A stretch of DNA of 64,000 bases from Paenibacillaceae bacterium (GTDB lineage: Bacteria; Bacillota; Clostridia; Lachnospirales; Lachnospiraceae): contig SVDU01000001.1 in NCBI GenBank assembly GCA_015057705.1, positions 310,001 to 374,000 of the forward strand. The letters run 5' to 3'. Below are positions 55,156 through 64,000 of the stretch, piece after piece. The stretch's first letter is position 1, and each line of letters opens with the position of its first letter. The notes beneath the pieces are model-generated. The model worked only from the letters and a program-made list of their open reading frames with translations. It did not search any database and was not told the DNA's origin. The position numbers and the translations under genes were made by a program.

Positions 55156-55200
55156 AAACGGCTGTCATGTAGGATGATAGCCGTTTCTTTCTGTCTGTTT
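55156..55200 (+). terminator. Intrinsic terminator between ftsH and jetA
   Basis: AAACGGCT and TCA (55156-55166) pair with TGA and AGCCGTTT (55174-55186), then CTTTCTGTCTGTTTTT. It could be the ftsH terminator, but a promoter lies between it and ftsH, so it also lies in the leader of jetA. Confidence 0.75.
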
Positions 55201-55242: not shown

Positions 55243-56604
55243 ATGATACTGATGAATGAGATACCGGACCGTTTCTGGGGACTGTTTCGTTCCATAAACC
55301 GGTCTACCTACATAGAAGCCCTTTTAAGAATTAATGAAGAATATGAATACAGCAACTACTTTTTAAGCCGTGAGGTGTGCCTGCAGGTTTTAGAGGAGTA
55401 TTTTGTCCAGAAACGTCTGGTGATCTGGCAGGATGAGCTGGAAGATGAGGCAGATGAATTGCTGCCCCCTGCTTCCAGAGTATTAAACTGGCTTTTGAGG
55501 GCAGGCTGGCTTCGCAAGGTAGATGATTATGCCTCCATGACGGTGAATATCGTAATTCCTGATTATGCCGCTGTCATGATTGAGGCATTTTTTAAGCTTT
55601 CCAGCGACGAAGAGGATGAGACACAGATCTATATTCAGAACATTTACGCCATTCTTTTCTCTTTGAAACATGATCCCAGGGCGGGAATCAGCCTTTTAAA
55701 TACGGCTTATGTTAATACGAAGCGGCTCAATAAGTCTTTGCAGGATATGCTGCATAACATGGATAAGTTTTTTGCAAGTCTATTGGAGCAGAAAGCGTAC
55801 GGAGAGTTGTTAAAAGAGCATCTGGAAGGTTATGTGGAGGAGATCGTAAAAAAGAAGTACCACATTTTAAAGACATCGGATAACTTTTATCTTTATAAAA
55901 ATGATATTAAACGGTGGATTGGCAGTCTGCGGGACGATATTGGTTGGATGGAAGAAACGAGCCGGCGAAGCGCTAATCGGGTGACTGCCGCAGATGTGGC
56001 TGAAAAGCTGGATCAGATTGAACGGGGATTTGATCACATCGAACACCGGATTTCCAATATGGACAAGGAACATTCCCGCTACATCCGCGCTACGGTAACA
56101 AGGCTAAATTATCTACTTAATCAGGAGGATAACATGAAAGGTCTTGTGATCCGGTTGTTAAACCATTTATCTCTTGTGGATGATTCGGAGGAAGCCATTG
56201 AAAAAGCGGGGAATTGTATGAACTTATCCCAGATGGCCATTCTTTCTGACAAATCCATTTACAAAAAGAGAAAGAGCAGAACGGAGTTTAAGGAAACGCT
56301 GGTGCCGGATGAGGAACCTACGGAGCTGACTGCAGAGGAGATTCTGAATTTAAACCGGGTGAAGAACCGTTACAGCAGGAAGGAAATTGAAAGCTATATT
56401 GAATCACGCATGGTAGATGGGCGTATGGAGGTCAGGGAAGATACCATCCGCACACCGGAGGAATTTGAAAAGCTGATTCTGGCTTATGATTATTCCATAA
56501 GGAGAAAAAGTCTTTATCGGGTGGAGGATATGGATCCGGAGCTGGTTGATAATGGTAAGTACCGTTATCCCCGGCTGGTATTTGTAAGGAGGAATGAAGT
56601 ATGA
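55243..56604 (+). CDS. jetA: Wadjet/Mks system kleisin-like protein JetA (DUF5716 type)
   Basis: A 453-residue helical protein resembling Wadjet JetA of the DUF5716 type: an N-terminal winged-helix-like start (MNEIPDRFWGLFRSINRSTYIEALLRINEEYEYSNYFLSREVCLQVLEEYF) with a long helical middle (DKLDQIERGFDHIEHRISNMDKEHSRYIRATVTRLNYLL). In solved Wadjet complexes JetA is the kleisin that bridges the SMC heads. The start at 55243 has only a distant GGGAG; ATG at 55252 (MNEIPDRF) is also possible. Its TGA overlaps the next ATG, so the three jet genes form one operon. Family call is by overall pattern and by gene neighbours. Confidence 0.8.
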   Translation: MILMNEIPDRFWGLFRSINRSTYIEALLRINEEYEYSNYFLSREVCLQVLEEYFVQKRLVIWQDELEDEADELLPPASRVLNWLLRAGWLRKVDDYASMTVNIVIPDYAAVMIEAFFKLSSDEEDETQIYIQNIYAILFSLKHDPRAGISLLNTAYVNTKRLNKSLQDMLHNMDKFFASLLEQKAYGELLKEHLEGYVEEIVKKKYHILKTSDNFYLYKNDIKRWIGSLRDDIGWMEETSRRSANRVTAADVAEKLDQIERGFDHIEHRISNMDKEHSRYIRATVTRLNYLLNQEDNMKGLVIRLLNHLSLVDDSEEAIEKAGNCMNLSQMAILSDKSIYKKRKSRTEFKETLVPDEEPTELTAEEILNLNRVKNRYSRKEIESYIESRMVDGRMEVREDTIRTPEEFEKLILAYDYSIRRKSLYRVEDMDPELVDNGKYRYPRLVFVRRNEV

Positions 56605-57251
56605 CAAATGAAGAATATACTGGCTCAATCAGCCAGATTCCATATTATGACGGGCTTTTACAGGGAGAGAAGGCGGAATTAAGAGATGCCATACGGCTGC
56701 TGTTAAAACAGACCTTTATCTTGGAACATCGGTATGACAAGCGTTCCAGCCGGTTTATTTATAACCAGGAATTTAAAGTCTGCAACAAGCACCTGGAGTT
56801 TATTCGGGCGTATTTAGCAGTCAGCGGTATTAATGTGCTGGAGAACAGCCAGCTGGGACTGATCTATATACAGGGTGAGGACACCATGGGAGAAAAGCTG
56901 CCAAAGCTTGCTACTCTTTACATACTGGTGCTGAAGTTAATTTACGATGAGCAGATGGCGGCAGTTTCTACCAGCATCAATGTTTATACTACCATAAGCG
57001 AGATCCACGACAAGCTTGGCAATTACCGGCTTTTCAAAAAGCAGCCTTCTGTTACGGAGATCCGCCGTGCCATCGCTCTGCTGAAAAAATATCAGATTCT
57101 GGAGCCCCTTGATGTGCTGGAAGATTTAGATGGGGACAACCGCATGATTATCTACCCCAGCATCAATGTGGTTTTATTTGGCGATGACGTAAGGTCTCTG
57201 CTGGAATCATTTGAAGAAGAAGGAGACAGCGATGACGAATCAGAATTTTGA
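56601..57251 (+). CDS. jetB: Wadjet/Mks system KITE protein JetB (DUF4194 type)
   Basis: A 216-residue protein of the DUF4194 (MukE/MksE-like KITE) type. It has a winged-helix pattern: LRDAIRLLLKQTFILEHRYDKRSSRFIYNQEFKVCNKHLEFIRAYLAVSGINVL, then LPKLATLYILVLKLIYDEQM and SVTEIRRAIALLKKYQILEPLDVLEDLDGDNRMIIYPSINVVL, with an acidic C-terminus. It would bind the JetA kleisin as a dimer. Its ATG overlaps the jetA stop and its end overlaps jetC by 20 bases; GTAAGGAGG lies before the ATG. Translation is coupled through the whole operon. Confidence 0.85.
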   Translation: MTNEEYTGSISQIPYYDGLLQGEKAELRDAIRLLLKQTFILEHRYDKRSSRFIYNQEFKVCNKHLEFIRAYLAVSGINVLENSQLGLIYIQGEDTMGEKLPKLATLYILVLKLIYDEQMAAVSTSINVYTTISEIHDKLGNYRLFKKQPSVTEIRRAIALLKKYQILEPLDVLEDLDGDNRMIIYPSINVVLFGDDVRSLLESFEEEGDSDDESEF

Positions 57252-60200
57252 GGCATTGTCCAGGATACTTTTAAATAACTGGCATTATATTACCCGTAAG
57301 ACTCTGTCTTTTCATGAAGAAATCAATTTCTTCACCGGGCATTCCGGCAGCGGAAAATCAACGGTTATTGATGCCATGCAGATCCTGCTTTATGCCAATA
57401 CCGACGGAAGAGGATTCTTTAATAAGGCGGCTGCCGATGATTCGGACCGAAATTTGATCGAATATCTGCGGGGAATGGTCAATATCGGAGAAAATAATGA
57501 ATTTGCCTATTTGCGGAATCAGAATTTTTCCACTACCATTGCTCTGGAGTTAAAGCGCACAGACAACGGGGAATGCCAGTGTGTGGGAATTATCTTTGAT
57601 GTGGAAACGTCCACCAATGATATATCAAGGAAGTTTTTCTGGCACAAAGGTCCGTTATGGGAAAATGAATACCGAACCGGAACAAGAACCATGACAATTG
57701 ATGAAGTGACTTCTTACCTTCAGGTTCATTATGAGAAAGATGAGTATTTTACCACCTCCCACAATGAACGGTTCCGCAGACAGCTGTATGATGTCTATCT
57801 GGGGGGATTGGATTCGGAGAAGTTTCCTCTGCTCTTTAAGCGCGCAATTCCGTTCCGCATGAATATCCGGCTGGAGGATTTCGTAAAGGAATATATCTGC
57901 ATGGAACAGGATATTCACATAGAGGACATGCAGGAAAGCGTTATGCAGTATGGGCGGATGAGAAAGAAGATCGAGGATACCTTTGTGGAGATTGGGTATT
58001 TAAAGGAAATGAGATCTCTCTACGATTCTGTACTGGAAAAGGATGAAGAGATCCGGTCAAACACCTATTATTTCCGCAAAATGGAGATTCTGGACTATCA
58101 GACCCGAATTCAGGCGCTGAAGGATAAGATCCGTCTTTCAGGGGAGGAGTATACCCGTCAGGAAGAGCGAAAAGTTGGGCTGGATGTTCAGATTAATGAT
58201 CTGACAAAGCAGGGAGAAGAGCTACTCCGCCAGATTTCTTCTACCGGATATGAGGACTTAAAGAATCAGCTGGAGTCAGCCAGGGAGCTGGTGAACCATT
58301 TAAATAAAAGTGTGGTAAAGTGGCAGCAGACGGCAGAACGTCTGAATGCATGGATTGATGAGGAATCCACCTCCAACCAGACCATCTGGGACATTGAGGA
58401 ATTTGAGAAAAATACCATTGATGAAGAGAAGCTTGCCAGATTAAAGAAATCCATCGCCCAGATGCAGGAGGAGACGGAAGATACGAAAAAAGAGGCAGAA
58501 AGCCTTTTGAGAGATATTAAGAAACGGGAGCGCCAGACCAGTGAGGAACTTACCCAGTTAAAAGCAGGAAGCAAGGCTTATCCAAAGCATGTGGAGCGGG
58601 CGAAAACATTTCTCCAGCAGCGTCTTCTTCAAAAGACAGGCAAGGCAGTAGAGGTTCACGTTCTTGCGGATCTTTTGGATATCCGGGATGAGAAATGGAG
58701 AAATGCGGCAGAAGGATATTTAGGCAATCACAAGCTGTCTCTGGTAGTTGCACCCGCTTATGCAAAAGCAGCCATGGAAGTCTATGAGGAACTGGATCAG
58801 AGTGAAGCCTTTCATGTGGCAGTTCTGGATACTGAGAGGGCAGGAGAGAGCACCCATGAGGTTCTTACCAATTCACTTGTGGAAGAAGTGATTGTAAGAG
58901 AGTCTTATTTGCAGCCTTACCTGGATTTGCTTCTTGGAAAAGTGATCAAATGCGAGAGCCTGGAAGAACTCCGCAGCTGCCGAATCGGTATCACGCCGGA
59001 ATGTATGCTGTACCACACTTTCCGCTTACAGCACATAAATCCCGATCATTACACCAGATTTGCCTATATCGGCAAGGATAGTGTACGCCGAAGAATCCGT
59101 TTGCTGGAAAAGAATCTGGAAGCCATGGAGGCGGAGAAGAAGCCGCAGGAACTGATTATAGGGGAATGCAGCCGCATTCTTTCTCTGGAAGCTTTAACGG
59201 AAGGAACAGAGGTTTATGCAGAGTGGCAGCAGGAAATCGCTTCGTTTAAAGAAAAAGAGAAAGAAATCCGAAAGCTGGAGCAGAAGCTGGAAAAGCTGAA
59301 AGCCCAGAATGTGGAGGAATGGGAAAAGGAACGGGAAGCCATTTTAGGCCTTTGTGAGGGAAAACGTGCCGAGTTAAGGGCGTTAGACCGTCTCATGGGA
59401 GACCTTCAGAGAAAGGCAGAAGAGTTCCAGCGTGAAGCGGTGCAGTTAGAAGAAGAACTGGTGGCGAAGGAACGGGCATTGGAGGCCGACCAGGAGTTGG
59501 AAGGAGTATTAAAAACATCTCTGGAGGGCAATGAAACTCCCCGCTATGACCGTTTAAAAGACCGCTACTTCGCTCTTTTAAAGAGAGCAGAGGAAGCCCG
59601 GGAAGAGGCGTACCGCCTTCTTATCTCTGCGAGAGGCGAGTATGTGCGTAAGTATCCCAACCGGAACTTTTCACTGACTGCTGAGGACAATCAGGAATAT
59701 GACCGTCTTCTGGAGATCATGGAGTGCGCAAATCTGGAAGAGTATAAGAATATGGCAGCAGAGCAGGCCAAGTCCGCAGTCCTTCATTTTAAAGACGACT
59801 TTATGTTTAAAATCCGAAGCGCCATTCGGGATGCGCTGCAGAGAAGGGATGAGCTGAACCGGATTATCAACAGACTGGATTTTGGAAAAGACAAGTATCA
59901 GTTTGTTATCGGAAAGAACAAGGGACCGGATGGCAGGTACTATGACATGTTCATGGATGATTCGCTGGAAATAAACCCTTCCCAGCTGACGGATTCTCTG
60001 GATAATCAAATGAATCTTTTCACCATGGAACATGAAAACCAGTACGGGGAATTAATTAATGATCTGATTAATATCTTTATTCCGCCAGAAAATGCAACTC
60101 CGGAGCAGATGGAAGAAGCAAAGCGGAATATGGATAAATATGCGGATTACCGCACTTATCTGAACTTTGATATGCAGCAGCTGATTCAGAATGAGGATGA

Positions 60201-60621
60201 GGTTATTAAGATCCGTTTAAGCAAGATGATTAAGAAGAATTCCGGCGGAGAGGGGCAGAATCCTCTTTACGTGGCGCTTCTTGCCAGCTTTGCCCAGGCA
60301 TACCGGATTAATGTGCCTCAGAAGATTCAGAGAAACCCAACCATCCGTCTTGTAGTTCTTGACGAGGCATTTTCCAAGATGGATGGGGAAAAGGTGGCAA
60401 GCTGTATCGAGCTGATCCGCGGCCTTGGTTTCCAGGCCATTATCAGCGCCACCAATGATAAGATTCAGAACTATGTGGAAAATGTAGACAAGACCTTTGT
60501 TTTCGCAAACCCCAACAAGAAATCCATCTCCATACAGGAATTTGAGCGGGAGAGCTTTCCCCAGCTGATGAGGGAACTTGATGAGGAAGATGAGGATGCA
60601 GGTGGCGTGGCTGGAGAATAG
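57232..60621 (+). CDS. jetC: Wadjet/Mks system SMC ATPase JetC
   Basis: A 1129-residue SMC-like ATPase related to MukB/MksB/SbcC. Walker A is GHSGSGKST (residues 36-44). The two coiled-coil arms lie at about 250-470 and 640-860, separated by a hinge-like globular region (about 480-640). The C-terminal head has the ABC signature SGGEGQ (1004-1009) and Walker B LVVLDEAFSKMD with Asp1044/Glu1045. In Wadjet, JetC extrudes DNA loops. AAGGAG lies seven bases before the ATG at 57232, inside the end of jetB; a TTG at 57211 is less likely. All ATPase motifs look intact. No jetD follows: the next gene is an unrelated lipoprotein on the other strand. Confidence 0.92.
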   Translation: MTNQNFEALSRILLNNWHYITRKTLSFHEEINFFTGHSGSGKSTVIDAMQILLYANTDGRGFFNKAAADDSDRNLIEYLRGMVNIGENNEFAYLRNQNFSTTIALELKRTDNGECQCVGIIFDVETSTNDISRKFFWHKGPLWENEYRTGTRTMTIDEVTSYLQVHYEKDEYFTTSHNERFRRQLYDVYLGGLDSEKFPLLFKRAIPFRMNIRLEDFVKEYICMEQDIHIEDMQESVMQYGRMRKKIEDTFVEIGYLKEMRSLYDSVLEKDEEIRSNTYYFRKMEILDYQTRIQALKDKIRLSGEEYTRQEERKVGLDVQINDLTKQGEELLRQISSTGYEDLKNQLESARELVNHLNKSVVKWQQTAERLNAWIDEESTSNQTIWDIEEFEKNTIDEEKLARLKKSIAQMQEETEDTKKEAESLLRDIKKRERQTSEELTQLKAGSKAYPKHVERAKTFLQQRLLQKTGKAVEVHVLADLLDIRDEKWRNAAEGYLGNHKLSLVVAPAYAKAAMEVYEELDQSEAFHVAVLDTERAGESTHEVLTNSLVEEVIVRESYLQPYLDLLLGKVIKCESLEELRSCRIGITPECMLYHTFRLQHINPDHYTRFAYIGKDSVRRRIRLLEKNLEAMEAEKKPQELIIGECSRILSLEALTEGTEVYAEWQQEIASFKEKEKEIRKLEQKLEKLKAQNVEEWEKEREAILGLCEGKRAELRALDRLMGDLQRKAEEFQREAVQLEEELVAKERALEADQELEGVLKTSLEGNETPRYDRLKDRYFALLKRAEEAREEAYRLLISARGEYVRKYPNRNFSLTAEDNQEYDRLLEIMECANLEEYKNMAAEQAKSAVLHFKDDFMFKIRSAIRDALQRRDELNRIINRLDFGKDKYQFVIGKNKGPDGRYYDMFMDDSLEINPSQLTDSLDNQMNLFTMEHENQYGELINDLINIFIPPENATPEQMEEAKRNMDKYADYRTYLNFDMQQLIQNEDEVIKIRLSKMIKKNSGGEGQNPLYVALLASFAQAYRINVPQKIQRNPTIRLVVLDEAFSKMDGEKVASCIELIRGLGFQAIISATNDKIQNYVENVDKTFVFANPNKKSISIQEFERESFPQLMRELDEEDEDAGGVAGE

Positions 60622-60643
60622 TCATTTGCCTGATTAGATAACG

Positions 60644-60689
60644 AAAAAAATACCTTGCCCGGCTTTTTTGCCGATGCAAGGTATTTTTT
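60644..60689. terminator. Bidirectional terminator after jetC
   Basis: AAAAAAATACCTTGC (60644-60658) pairs with GCAAGGTATTTTTT (60676-60689), with CGGC/GCCG inside. Run of T on both strands. It closes both jetC and the convergent lipoprotein gene. Confidence 0.9.
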
Positions 60690-62655
60690 ATCCCCAGGCG
60701 GGGACTGCCAGATAAAATGCTGTATCAGGATTCCCATCCCAGGCTGCTTCCTTTACCCATCCCCAGGCTCCGGCCTCGTTCATAACCAGGATATAGGAGT
60801 GTCCGTCCTTTACTGCCCAGCCGATAGGGCAGACTGTTTCTCCAGGACTGACAGAGAAAGCGGGGGTATCTCCTTCCATAGAAGTTGTGACAGGAAATGT
60901 ATGGGATACCACATAATAATTCTCCGGATTCTGATGAAGAAACGAGTTGGTGATCATATCATAATTCTTATTGAAATAAACATTCTGCGGTACTTCCATT
61001 AATTTCCCGTCTTCATAAGACCAAATAAGATCTATGAAGTAACACCCAAACTGGAGAGTAGATCCCATAAATGGAGTATCTGCAGATACTTTTAAAATTC
61101 CATCTCCCTCCGCTGTTAATCCTCCCTCACGGAAAAGAGATCCATTTCCTCCGCAGACCGGACCTGCCAGATCTCCAATCAACTCCAGACTGCCGTTTTG
61201 GTAACGAAAGAAGCTGTATGAGAAAAGGGAATCGGAATCCTGGGTTATATCCAGGTGAAGCTCAATTTGCTGATCCTTTTTATTAAGGTCCAATGCCGTC
61301 AGACTGATGTTGCCCCTTACATTTTCAGGAATCGAGGTCTGGCTCTTGCCATTAATAGAAAGTTTGAGGCTTTTCTCATAAGAATCTTTCGGATCTTCAG
61401 TGCTGCTCCAGCGAATGGTTTCGCAGACACCATCACCATCTAAATCCAGTAGATAATCTTTGTCTGGTTTCAAGGTAACACCTTCATCAGTGATTTCTTT
61501 GTCAGGTAGCTGACTTTCCGCTGTCTTAATCAGCTCCAGATTTTTCTTTTCAATCTCATTTAGAACATCCTCTTTGAAATCAGCGGGAGACGTCTCAGCG
61601 TGATACCATGATTTACTGTTGAAATATTCCTGCAGATCTGCTGCATCAAATTTCCTGCCATGGCGGGCATAGATTTCGTTTCTTGCCAGTCTCAGCATTG
61701 ATGGATCAGCCTCCAGCAAATCTCCTCCCGTGAGATAGCCTGTGCTGCTTTCCGGAAATATATAATCTGGTTGTGCTGTGGCATTTACGGCTTCATCTTC
61801 TGATTTTTGCGCAGCAGCCATGAGCTGTTTCCCATAATCATTGAGTTTATCTTCGATCTGCTTATAAGGGATCAGCGTTTCCGGTTTGGGAGAAGAGCTG
61901 ATTTTCCCCCCATTCCACTGAGAGGATAATAAAATTCCTTCCTTTAAAAGTGCAAACTGGCTGAGGTCGGAAGACATGATCTGGTTCAGAAGGGTGGCGC
62001 TAAAGCCTGCAGATGCCTGATCTGCCGCAGCCTGGGCTAGAGCCAGCTTTAATCCCTCCGGATCATCGGAAAGAGCAGATAGCGTAATCCTCTTTCCATT
62101 TTCCACATCATAAGAACTTAAAAAGGCAAATGTATCATTGCGGTCATTTCCCCTGATATCGGTTCCGTTCTGCTTCAGACTTAAAAGTCTTCCGTCATTT
62201 CGCAGTACCTGATAATCAAAGGTGTAAAGGTAATTTTTCTGTGGATTACCGGCTTTTGCTGGTGGGATTTCCATGGTATCACTGATGAAATTGTTTCGCC
62301 TGGTGTTCTGATCATTCTCTCTAACGTTACGGTTGATGAGATACTGGGAAGTGGGGGTATCAGGAATGATTACCTCCGGCACCCGGCTGTTCCAACGGTA
62401 AATCAGGGCTCCGCGGTCGGTATATTTCTCACTGGTAACCGTAGTCCAGGTTTTTACTGTTACCGGACTGACGCTATTTTCTGTATTTGTTTTTACAGCT
62501 TCCGTACTGCTTTCTTCTTGTGTTGCAGTATCCTGTTTTGTGGTGGATCCAGACGGCTGGGAAGGGGTCTCCCCCAACCGGGAATTCATCCTACATCCGG
62601 ATGCGGTTAAGGAAAGGGCTAGGAGTATAACTGGAAGCAATGGATGTGGTTTCAT
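60688..62655 (-). CDS. YARHG-domain lipoprotein of unknown function
   Basis: A 655-residue exported protein. The signal MKPHPLLPVILLALSLTASGC has a lipobox with lipidated Cys21, followed by a Ser/Thr/Glu linker. Residues about 65-280 resemble a DUF4163/DUF3298-like extracytoplasmic domain (LYTFDYQVLRNDGRLLSLKQ). A YARHG domain lies near residues 325-380 (LARNEIYARHGRKFDAADLQEYFNSKSWYH). A beta-rich region with a calcium-loop-like DLDGDGVCE follows, then an SH3-like end (GAWGWVKEAAWDG). No enzyme motif was seen. GAGGAATGAAG precedes the ATG. The role is probably at the cell envelope. Confidence 0.8.
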   Translation of the reverse strand: MKPHPLLPVILLALSLTASGCRMNSRLGETPSQPSGSTTKQDTATQEESSTEAVKTNTENSVSPVTVKTWTTVTSEKYTDRGALIYRWNSRVPEVIIPDTPTSQYLINRNVRENDQNTRRNNFISDTMEIPPAKAGNPQKNYLYTFDYQVLRNDGRLLSLKQNGTDIRGNDRNDTFAFLSSYDVENGKRITLSALSDDPEGLKLALAQAAADQASAGFSATLLNQIMSSDLSQFALLKEGILLSSQWNGGKISSSPKPETLIPYKQIEDKLNDYGKQLMAAAQKSEDEAVNATAQPDYIFPESSTGYLTGGDLLEADPSMLRLARNEIYARHGRKFDAADLQEYFNSKSWYHAETSPADFKEDVLNEIEKKNLELIKTAESQLPDKEITDEGVTLKPDKDYLLDLDGDGVCETIRWSSTEDPKDSYEKSLKLSINGKSQTSIPENVRGNISLTALDLNKKDQQIELHLDITQDSDSLFSYSFFRYQNGSLELIGDLAGPVCGGNGSLFREGGLTAEGDGILKVSADTPFMGSTLQFGCYFIDLIWSYEDGKLMEVPQNVYFNKNYDMITNSFLHQNPENYYVVSHTFPVTTSMEGDTPAFSVSPGETVCPIGWAVKDGHSYILVMNEAGAWGWVKEAAWDGNPDTAFYLAVPAWG

Positions 62656-62937: not shown

Positions 62938-64000
62938 ATGGCAAAACAGTATATTAAGATAAGAGGTGCCAATGAGCACAACCTAAAGAACGTGAGTCTG
63001 GACATTCCCAGGAATGAGCTGGTTGTATTAACCGGTCTCAGCGGTTCCGGGAAGTCTTCCCTGGCCTTTGATACCATTTATGCTGAAGGTCAGAGGCGGT
63101 ATATGGAGTCTCTTTCCTCCTATGCGCGGCAGTTCCTTGGTCAGATGGAGAAGCCGGACGTGGAGAGCATTGAAGGTCTGTCACCGGCCATTTCCATTGA
63201 CCAGAAGTCGACCAACCGCAACCCTCGTTCCACAGTCGGTACCGTTACGGAAATTTATGATTATATGAGGCTTCTTTATGCCAGAATCGGTATCCCCCAC
63301 TGTCCAAAGTGCGGAAGAGAGATTCGCAAACAGACCATTGACCAGATGGTGGATCAGATTATGGAGCTGCCTGAGCGGACCAAGATCCAGCTGCTGGCTC
63401 CGGTTGTCCGCGGACGGAAGGGAGAACATGCCAAGGTTCTGGAGAGTGCCCGCAAGAGCGGATACGTAAGAGTCCGTGTTGACGGCAGTCTCTACGAGCT
63501 TTCAGAAGAGATCAAGCTGGACAAGAACATCAAGCACAGTATCGATGTGGTTGTGGACCGTCTGGCTATCCGTGAAGGAATCTCAAAGCGTCTTACCGAT
63601 TCCATTGAGACCGTGATGGAGCTGGCAGGCGGGTTGATGACCGTTGATGTTATTGACGGAGAGCCCATTCATTTCAGCCAGAGCTTTTCCTGCCCGGACT
63701 GCGGAATCAGCATTGATGAAGTGGAGCCAAGAAGCTTCTCCTTTAATAACCCCTTTGGAGCATGTCCGGACTGTTTCGGTCTGGGATATAAGATGGAGTT
63801 TGATGAGGATTTAATGATTCCGGATAAGAGCTTAAGTATTGATCAGGGAGCCATCACAGTGCTGGGCTGGCAGTCCTGTACGGATAAGGGAAGCTATACC
63901 CGTGCAGTCTTAGATGCTCTTGCAAGAGAATATAAGTTCAGTCTTGATACACCTTTCGAGGACTACTCACAGGAAGTTCATGACATTCTGATCCATGGAA
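62938..64000 (+). CDS. uvrA: Excinuclease ABC subunit A (partial, runs off the right edge)
   Basis: The first 354 codons of UvrA, the damage-recognition ATPase of nucleotide excision repair. The N-terminus MAKQYIKIRGANEHNLKNVSL, Walker A GLSGSGKSS (residues 33-41), DTIYAEGQRRYMESLSSYARQFLGQMEKPDVESIEGLSPAISIDQK and the first zinc-finger C-x-x-C (Cys122, Cys125) are all conserved. AACAGGAG precedes the ATG. The gene is open to the end of the window. It is preceded by an SOS box. Confidence 0.96.
   Translation, partial: MAKQYIKIRGANEHNLKNVSLDIPRNELVVLTGLSGSGKSSLAFDTIYAEGQRRYMESLSSYARQFLGQMEKPDVESIEGLSPAISIDQKSTNRNPRSTVGTVTEIYDYMRLLYARIGIPHCPKCGREIRKQTIDQMVDQIMELPERTKIQLLAPVVRGRKGEHAKVLESARKSGYVRVRVDGSLYELSEEIKLDKNIKHSIDVVVDRLAIREGISKRLTDSIETVMELAGGLMTVDVIDGEPIHFSQSFSCPDCGISIDEVEPRSFSFNNPFGACPDCFGLGYKMEFDEDLMIPDKSLSIDQGAITVLGWQSCTDKGSYTRAVLDALAREYKFSLDTPFEDYSQEVHDILIHG

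Follow-up and report, generated by a model that had tools for sequence, protein, structure and literature searches.

A jetABC operon of type I Wadjet ancestry that lacks jetD in a Lacrimispora-like genome, a candidate nuclease-free SMC complex

The window (the whole stretch of DNA that was analysed, 64,000 nucleotides) contains an operon for the three motor subunits of a type I Wadjet, JetA, JetB and JetC, from which the nuclease gene jetD is missing. On balance, we favour the explanation that an ancestor lost jetD and that selection has maintained jetABC ever since as an SMC-kleisin-KITE complex without a nuclease, an assembly that resembles MksBEF. According to this explanation, the ancestor would have carried a type I jetABCD operon, from which jetD was lost and jetABC retained. 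JetABC without JetD would still hydrolyse ATP and extrude DNA loops, without cutting, and the job under selection would be a cleavage-independent one on DNA, namely the organisation and segregation of the chromosome or of another replicon alongside SMC-ScpAB. Wadjet is viewed as a sensing motor whose purpose is to activate a nuclease, and near-housekeeping selection on the motor after many losses of that nuclease implies a JetD-independent function.

Organisation of the jetABC operon

The features of the locus are the following (coordinates of the window).

55243..56604, + strand: jetA, kleisin subunit, 453 aa; PADLOC JetA1, 788 bits
56601..57251, + strand: jetB, KITE subunit, 216 aa; PADLOC JetB1, 356 bits
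57232..60621, + strand: jetC, SMC ATPase, 1129 aa from the ATG at 57232; PADLOC JetC1, 1688 bits
57337..57363, + strand: Walker A motif of JetC, GHSGSGKST, invariant across 16 aligned JetC proteins
60241..60258, + strand: ABC signature of JetC, SGGEGQ, invariant across the same 16 proteins
60346..60366, + strand: Walker B motif of JetC, RLVVLDE, 6 of 7 residues invariant in the 16 proteins, the acidic D and E included
60622..60644, no strand: vacant jetD position; where congeners carry jetD, its frame of about 1.2 kb begins within the last 35-38 bp of jetC
60645..60689, no strand: bidirectional intrinsic terminator, common to the convergent gene, with perfect 14-nt arms at 60645-60658 and 60676-60689
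60688..62655, - strand: YARHG-domain gene (Pfam YARHG, 2.6e-24), convergent flank outside the system, with an N-terminus read as lipoprotein-like

An earlier note, made from the letters alone, had assigned three overlapping genes to the JetABC families, and this assignment was borne out by very strong Pfam and PADLOC type I scores. The three ORFs are uninterrupted; jetA and jetB are joined by an ATGA overlap, jetB and jetC overlap by 20 bp, and an in-frame TTG at 57211 provides an alternative start for jetC that would give 1136 aa. In Pfam, JetA matched PF18982 (DUF5716) with 9.7e-144 over residues 2-434 of 434, JetB matched DUF4194 with 5.8e-18, and JetC matched SbcC_Walker_B and AAA_29. The PADLOC JetA1, JetB1 and JetC1 matches each cover nearly the full length of the protein. 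The proteins of the window correspond to these models and not to JetA2 and JetB2 (DUF2397/DUF2398) or JetC2 of type II, the best JetC2 model scoring 32.7 bits against JetC among the matches listed. JetA, JetB and JetC of Wadjet type I were all found in the locus, and JetD was not.

The ATPase motifs of JetC had been described as intact, and the alignment of the protein with 15 relatives (44-74% identity) confirmed this. A profile built from the 16 JetC proteins matched the JetC of the PDB (8as8_A) at 3.9e-17. The AlphaFold model of JetB (pLDDT 83.4) gave its best alignments with JetB and MukE chains, and that of JetA aligned best, at large rmsd, with the kleisin chains of MukBEF and Wadjet, a result to be read at domain level (pLDDT 71.5, pTM 0.41). 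A search of solved structures with the jetA sequence returned zero relatives, and so did one with an alignment of JetD.

Only 66 bp separate jetC from the YARHG gene, which leaves no room for jetD and agrees with the absence of this gene from the locus claimed before. The bidirectional terminator that closes the operon is also real (-24.9 kcal/mol, z -6.66); it was registered by folding and not by a terminator scan restricted to loops of 8 nt or less. The YARHG gene lies 3' of jetC in 7 of the loci of the best 80 of 178 relatives. Upstream of the operon stand ftsH and an ABC-transporter operon, and downstream uvrA starts at 62938. Between ftsH and jetA (55156-55186), a 13-pair hairpin with a T-rich tail was observed, which is possibly the ftsH terminator; such matches are no commoner than in shuffled sequences. 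Promoter-like sites in the scan showed no excess either (6 versus 9.0 in shuffles).

Distribution and excision of jetD among relatives

Relatives of the locus were taken from a scan of named records, and the best 80 of 178 were retained, the more distant ones being left out. The nearest relatives belong to Lacrimispora (L. defluvii, L. xylanisolvens and L. amygdalina), and the source genome is Lacrimispora-like. Two contigs labelled as Paenibacillaceae MAGs (L061 and L062) carry a locus 99% identical to that of Lacrimispora and are probably mislabelled or misbinned. Using a JetD profile (23 seeds), jetD was detected at 18 of these 80 loci, was absent from 59 and remained unclear at three, where contigs end too soon. 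It was located within 1 kb of jetC in 17 of the 18, and 7 kb away in the other one (L100). In these comparisons, jetD-less means that jetD is not near jetC, and three rows of this class carry jetD elsewhere. At one locus (L089, 7736-8089) a jetD remnant of 117 aa stands straight after jetC with jetABC intact, apparently a loss in progress.

Because the top-ranking Lacrimispora loci nearly duplicate one another, counts of lineages weigh more than counts of loci. At equal cost, the JetC tree (FastTree, 88 rows, 83 of them scored) required at least 13 changes of jetD status. When only losses were allowed, 17 were counted on it, or 14, 10 and 9 after collapsing the branches below 80, 95 and 99, respectively. 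It is most likely that the locus family once had jetD, the jetABCD operons of relatives, some of them at the same place, pointing to several losses. In a sample of 150 genomes of the family, jetD was beside jetC in 4 of 17 members of the clade versus 24 of 27 other JetC places (Fisher p 1.7e-5); these counts were sorted by hand, with G003 (contig end) and G029 excluded and G026 (jetD 7 kb away) scored as not beside. The class sample (293 genomes, also sorted by hand) contained 28 JetA places past the cut-off, 17 with JetD_C within about 7 kb, seven with none listed, two of which belong to this genus, and four unclear because of their contigs. These counts indicate that jetD-less loci are concentrated in this clade, though not confined to it.

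Within the genus, a set of 25 genomes, which overlaps the 80 loci, was compared. A jetC match was obtained in 24 of them, the exception being a genome 67% complete, and in 22 of 22 genomes of good quality; the gene is undivided in 21 of these and split in two in G206. Of 20 genus loci inspected, 16 had ftsH at most 3.2 kb upstream of jetA or had uvrA downstream; in the 80 loci, ftsH- and uvrA-like genes are found in 13-14, as synteny among close relatives. These data sustain the view of the earlier note that the operon has a resident setting. In this set jetD adjoins jetC in two genomes, G207 and G216. Its frame starts 35-38 bp inside the end of jetC in both, alike with a genome of another genus (G033, JetC 73% identical), where jetABCD is followed by uvrA.

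The comparison of G207 with its congener G208 is the most direct. The two are 96% identical up to the final codons of jetC, after which G207 has 1266 bp with jetD and G208 has 35 bp, and then the same hairpin and downstream gene follow in both. This indicates a clean excision of jetD between these congeners, with the terminator of the operon retained. Three other genomes (G204, G205 and G218) match G207 on both sides of jetD, the hairpin stretch itself not aligning. The two jetABCD congeners and the jetABC-only sister species from which jetD is cleanly excised constitute natural test pairs. A tblastn search for jetD remnants 3' of jetC in the genus gave chance matches only (E 0.12 and above).

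One important question is whether jetD was lost or gained. A loss-only reading of the genus tree needs 4 to 6 losses, depending on its basal fork, and at equal cost three changes suffice; equal-cost parsimony also permits regains of jetD, both among these three and among the 13 of the wide tree. Gain instead of loss is disfavoured by the common overlap of jetC and jetD, by the congruent deep groups of JetD and by the retained terminator. The trees of JetD and JetC (20 loci) have their deep groups in common, and the pairwise identities of the two proteins are correlated (rho 0.66, or 0.78 in a set of 18 loci, for which the JetA value is 0.83). Recombination could nevertheless have restored jetD in single cases. 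Between G207 and G208 the dS of jetC was 0.29 versus 0.54-0.64 in jetA and jetB, and between loci L086 and L087 the dS of jetD was 0.05 versus 0.47-0.55 in jetA, jetB and jetC, which suggests that the jetD end was probably exchanged between lineages in the latter pair. In L086 and L087, the similarity of jetD and of the flank 3' of it far exceeds that of jetABC, and small ORFs separate jetC from jetD.

Flanking ORFs of the 80 loci were also clustered in search of a replacement effector, and no clade-wide recurring family was found except jetD itself (18 loci). The next most frequent family was a generic ABC ATPase, at 17 loci and at scattered distances.

Selection on jetABC and the whereabouts of JetD

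Omega was calculated by the Nei-Gojobori method, with saturated pairs dropped. In jetD-less pairs the values were 0.03-0.10 for jetA, 0.01-0.11 for jetB and 0.03-0.11 for jetC; jetD-bearing pairs gave 0.02-0.13 for the same three genes. For comparison, ftsH gave 0.035-0.057, uvrA 0.014-0.044 and jetD, where present, 0.10-0.15. These ratios indicate strong purifying selection on jetA, jetB and jetC without jetD. As JetABC seems to be under similar selection whether or not jetD is present, a job independent of JetD probably existed before the losses. No region of JetABC significantly freer to vary after the loss of jetD was detected in 171 sliding windows over 16 jetD-less and 7 jetD-bearing pairs (best p 0.01 uncorrected, none surviving correction), and this test gave no sign that the motor was retuned for a new role. 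The IFDR string, considered as a marker because a review describes JetD as touching IFDR at the N-terminus of JetB, was found in 0 of 82 JetB rows; missing from jetD-bearing and jetD-less JetB alike, it cannot tell them apart. The repeated loss of jetD with the motor kept in relatives suggests that this motor may have a useful job of its own.

That job could in principle still be defence. JetABC alone might act on plasmid or phage DNA without cutting it, small circles being extruded, compacted or silenced, and part of the defence would then not need jetD. The window encodes an intact motor, the part that recognises small circles, the predicted kleisin and KITE models match Wadjet chains, and the similar selection with and without jetD also fits; nevertheless, the presence of jetC in 24 of 25 genus genomes stands against it, since near-universal carriage within a genus would be more than is generally expected of a defence gene. 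We consider this explanation unlikely, and published assays also oppose it: plasmid suppression in Bacillus subtilis is reported to require all four subunits (PMC10586767), and in Corynebacterium glutamicum the deletion of mksG is reported to affect plasmids in the same way as that of mksB or mksF (PMC10123090).

A second explanation, which we regard as quite improbable, is that a nuclease encoded elsewhere in the genome, either a recognised one or one that escapes recognition, partners JetABC. The whole-genome search for JetD proposed in the earlier note gave a divided result. In the source genome (4.53 Mb, 98% complete), PF09983 (JetD_C) had no match at E 0.001, with C. glutamicum positive as control, and a profile of 18 clade JetDs had no match at E 0.01, with G033 detected as positive control. 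No type I JetD was found, therefore, and the cutting step of Wadjet I would be impossible with the genome's own parts. In contrast, PF09664 (DUF2399), which forms part of type II JetD, matched the source genome at C25:61147-61590. Around this match lies a complete type II Wadjet (JetA2 640, JetB2 444, JetC2 1472 and JetD2 434 bits), arranged as JetA2-JetB2-JetC2-JetD2 on the minus strand at 8133-16140 of L226 (source genome C25:53000-70000). It would thus be wrong to say that the cell has lost Wadjet defence, and it may still possess a Wadjet plasmid defence of another type. This JetD2 is one candidate for a partner encoded elsewhere; it sits, however, with its own JetA2, JetB2 and JetC2, and its best alignment to clade JetD is 31% identity over 87 aa. 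Among the 25 genus genomes, to which the search was applied, PF09664 matched eight; five of these matches were strong (E 1e-25 or below) and three weak, and two of the weak ones fell on the type I JetDs of G207 and G216. Strong JetD2 matches in 5 of 25 genomes versus jetC in 24 of 25 indicate that JetD2 is no conserved partner of the type I motor, so that the case which the earlier note named as refuting, a jetD elsewhere co-conserved with this jetABC, was not found.

The same explanation may apply to a few relatives. Among the 50 genomes whose locus lacks jetD, PF09983 matched 21, ten of which gave E values under 1e-10; in seven of these ten the match was near a second JetA. In the remaining three (G171, G182 and G197), the match is a JetD of the clade type at another place, and no second JetA was found. 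The clade JetD profile was run on 49 of the 50 jetD-less genomes and on G046, whose jet places are the same as those of the fiftieth. Solo clade-type jetD genes away from jetABC, with one JetA per genome, were seen at L169 7956-9122, L170 208-1449 and L171 1415-2668. Frames of 340-370 aa, such as G208:C1:3005056-3005496, give weak JetD_C/DUF2399 matches in many genomes and may represent another TOPRIM-like family.

JetA was found in all 50 jetD-less genomes. At five loci with jetBC only (L111, L114, L116, L123 and L129), a full-length jetA was located elsewhere in each of the five genomes; in the four that were read out, it was about 9 kb upstream of jetB (G196 and G192) or on another contig (G185 and G183). 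The split of jetA from jetBC, with jetA full length, was seen in Sporofaciens, Dorea-labelled and other Lachnospiraceae genomes (L228, L229, L230 and L231). Retention of all three motor genes after breakup of the operon argues that the complex is in use.

It is very doubtful that the operon is a decaying Wadjet remnant, with jetD lost as harmful and jetABC on its way out: repeated loss of jetD, the remnant in L089 and jetC in pieces at 3 of 80 loci and in G206 and G223 would agree with it, but jetA persists in genomes where it is separated from jetBC, every good-quality genus genome has a jetC match, and the window's clade (8 genus rows) lacks jetD throughout despite divergence of JetC to 76% identity (G210), with jetC as a single ORF in 7 of 8 and omega of 0.03-0.06 in the pairs tested. 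Of the broken genes, that of G206 is probably from the same genome as L088, one of the three fragmented loci; another genome, G215, matches JetC residues 1-568 only.

Comparison with known SMC systems

In Wadjet, JetABC extrudes DNA and JetD cuts when the extrusion of a small circle is completed, as described in PMC10586767 and PMC12647877. The operon of the window shares families, fold and gene order with Wadjet type I (JetABCD, also MksBEFG or EptABCD), in which jetD lies directly 3' of jetC in relatives; it differs in that jetD is missing from the operon and type I JetD from the source genome. The type II Wadjet on C25 has the same architecture, nuclease included, and its sequence is very distant from that of jetABC in the window.

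Several points count against the favoured explanation. From what is reported, plasmid suppression in B. subtilis needs the complete set, the Stenotrophomonas maltophilia variant without jetD was judged probably inactive (PMC11680222), deletion of the whole jetABCD in Clostridium cellulovorans left growth and cell morphology unaffected (PMC12287153), and MksBEFG of C. glutamicum had no effect on chromosome folding (PMC7083940). The same C. cellulovorans study reports that conjugation into this species rose by about five orders of magnitude upon deletion of jetABCD. From our own data, the lack of any sign of re-tuning, the regains that parsimony permits, the fragmented jetC genes and the 3 of 50 jetD-less genomes with JetD elsewhere also count against it.

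The S. maltophilia precedent (PMC11680222) means that the absence of jetD is not new in itself. There, jetABC is conserved without jetD, together with a recBCD operon, and is the commoner Wadjet I variant; that observation concerns one species, whereas here many independent losses across genera are accompanied by evidence of continuing selection. In the open-licence literature we found no account, for Lacrimispora or for Lachnospiraceae, of a Wadjet without jetD, and none of losses that recur while selection is maintained. Tentatively, and with somewhat less than even confidence, we extend the favoured explanation to these related Lachnospiraceae: their type I JetABC would be primarily a resident, nuclease-independent SMC complex and JetD an accessory weapon repeatedly shed. 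Wadjet would then have become a condensin-like machine independently in many lineages, or have been one as well from the start. This would bear on the proposal, made in PMC10586767, that MukBEF and MksBEF descended from a Wadjet-like defence system.

The closest functional parallel is MksBEF of Pseudomonas aeruginosa, likewise a three-subunit, MukBEF-like SMC complex, which is reported to act in chromosome segregation as a second SMC beside SMC-ScpAB (PMC7485682). In the source genome, a nuclease-free set of SMC, kleisin and KITE subunits was found beside SMC-ScpAB (ScpA, 2.2e-38), and ScpA was present in 12 of 12 genomes searched; JetABC would therefore be a second SMC in the manner of the P. 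aeruginosa complex. It may likewise have a condensin-like role on the chromosome. By sequence, the motor of the window is a JetC1-type Wadjet, and its likeness to MksBEF is one of subunit set.
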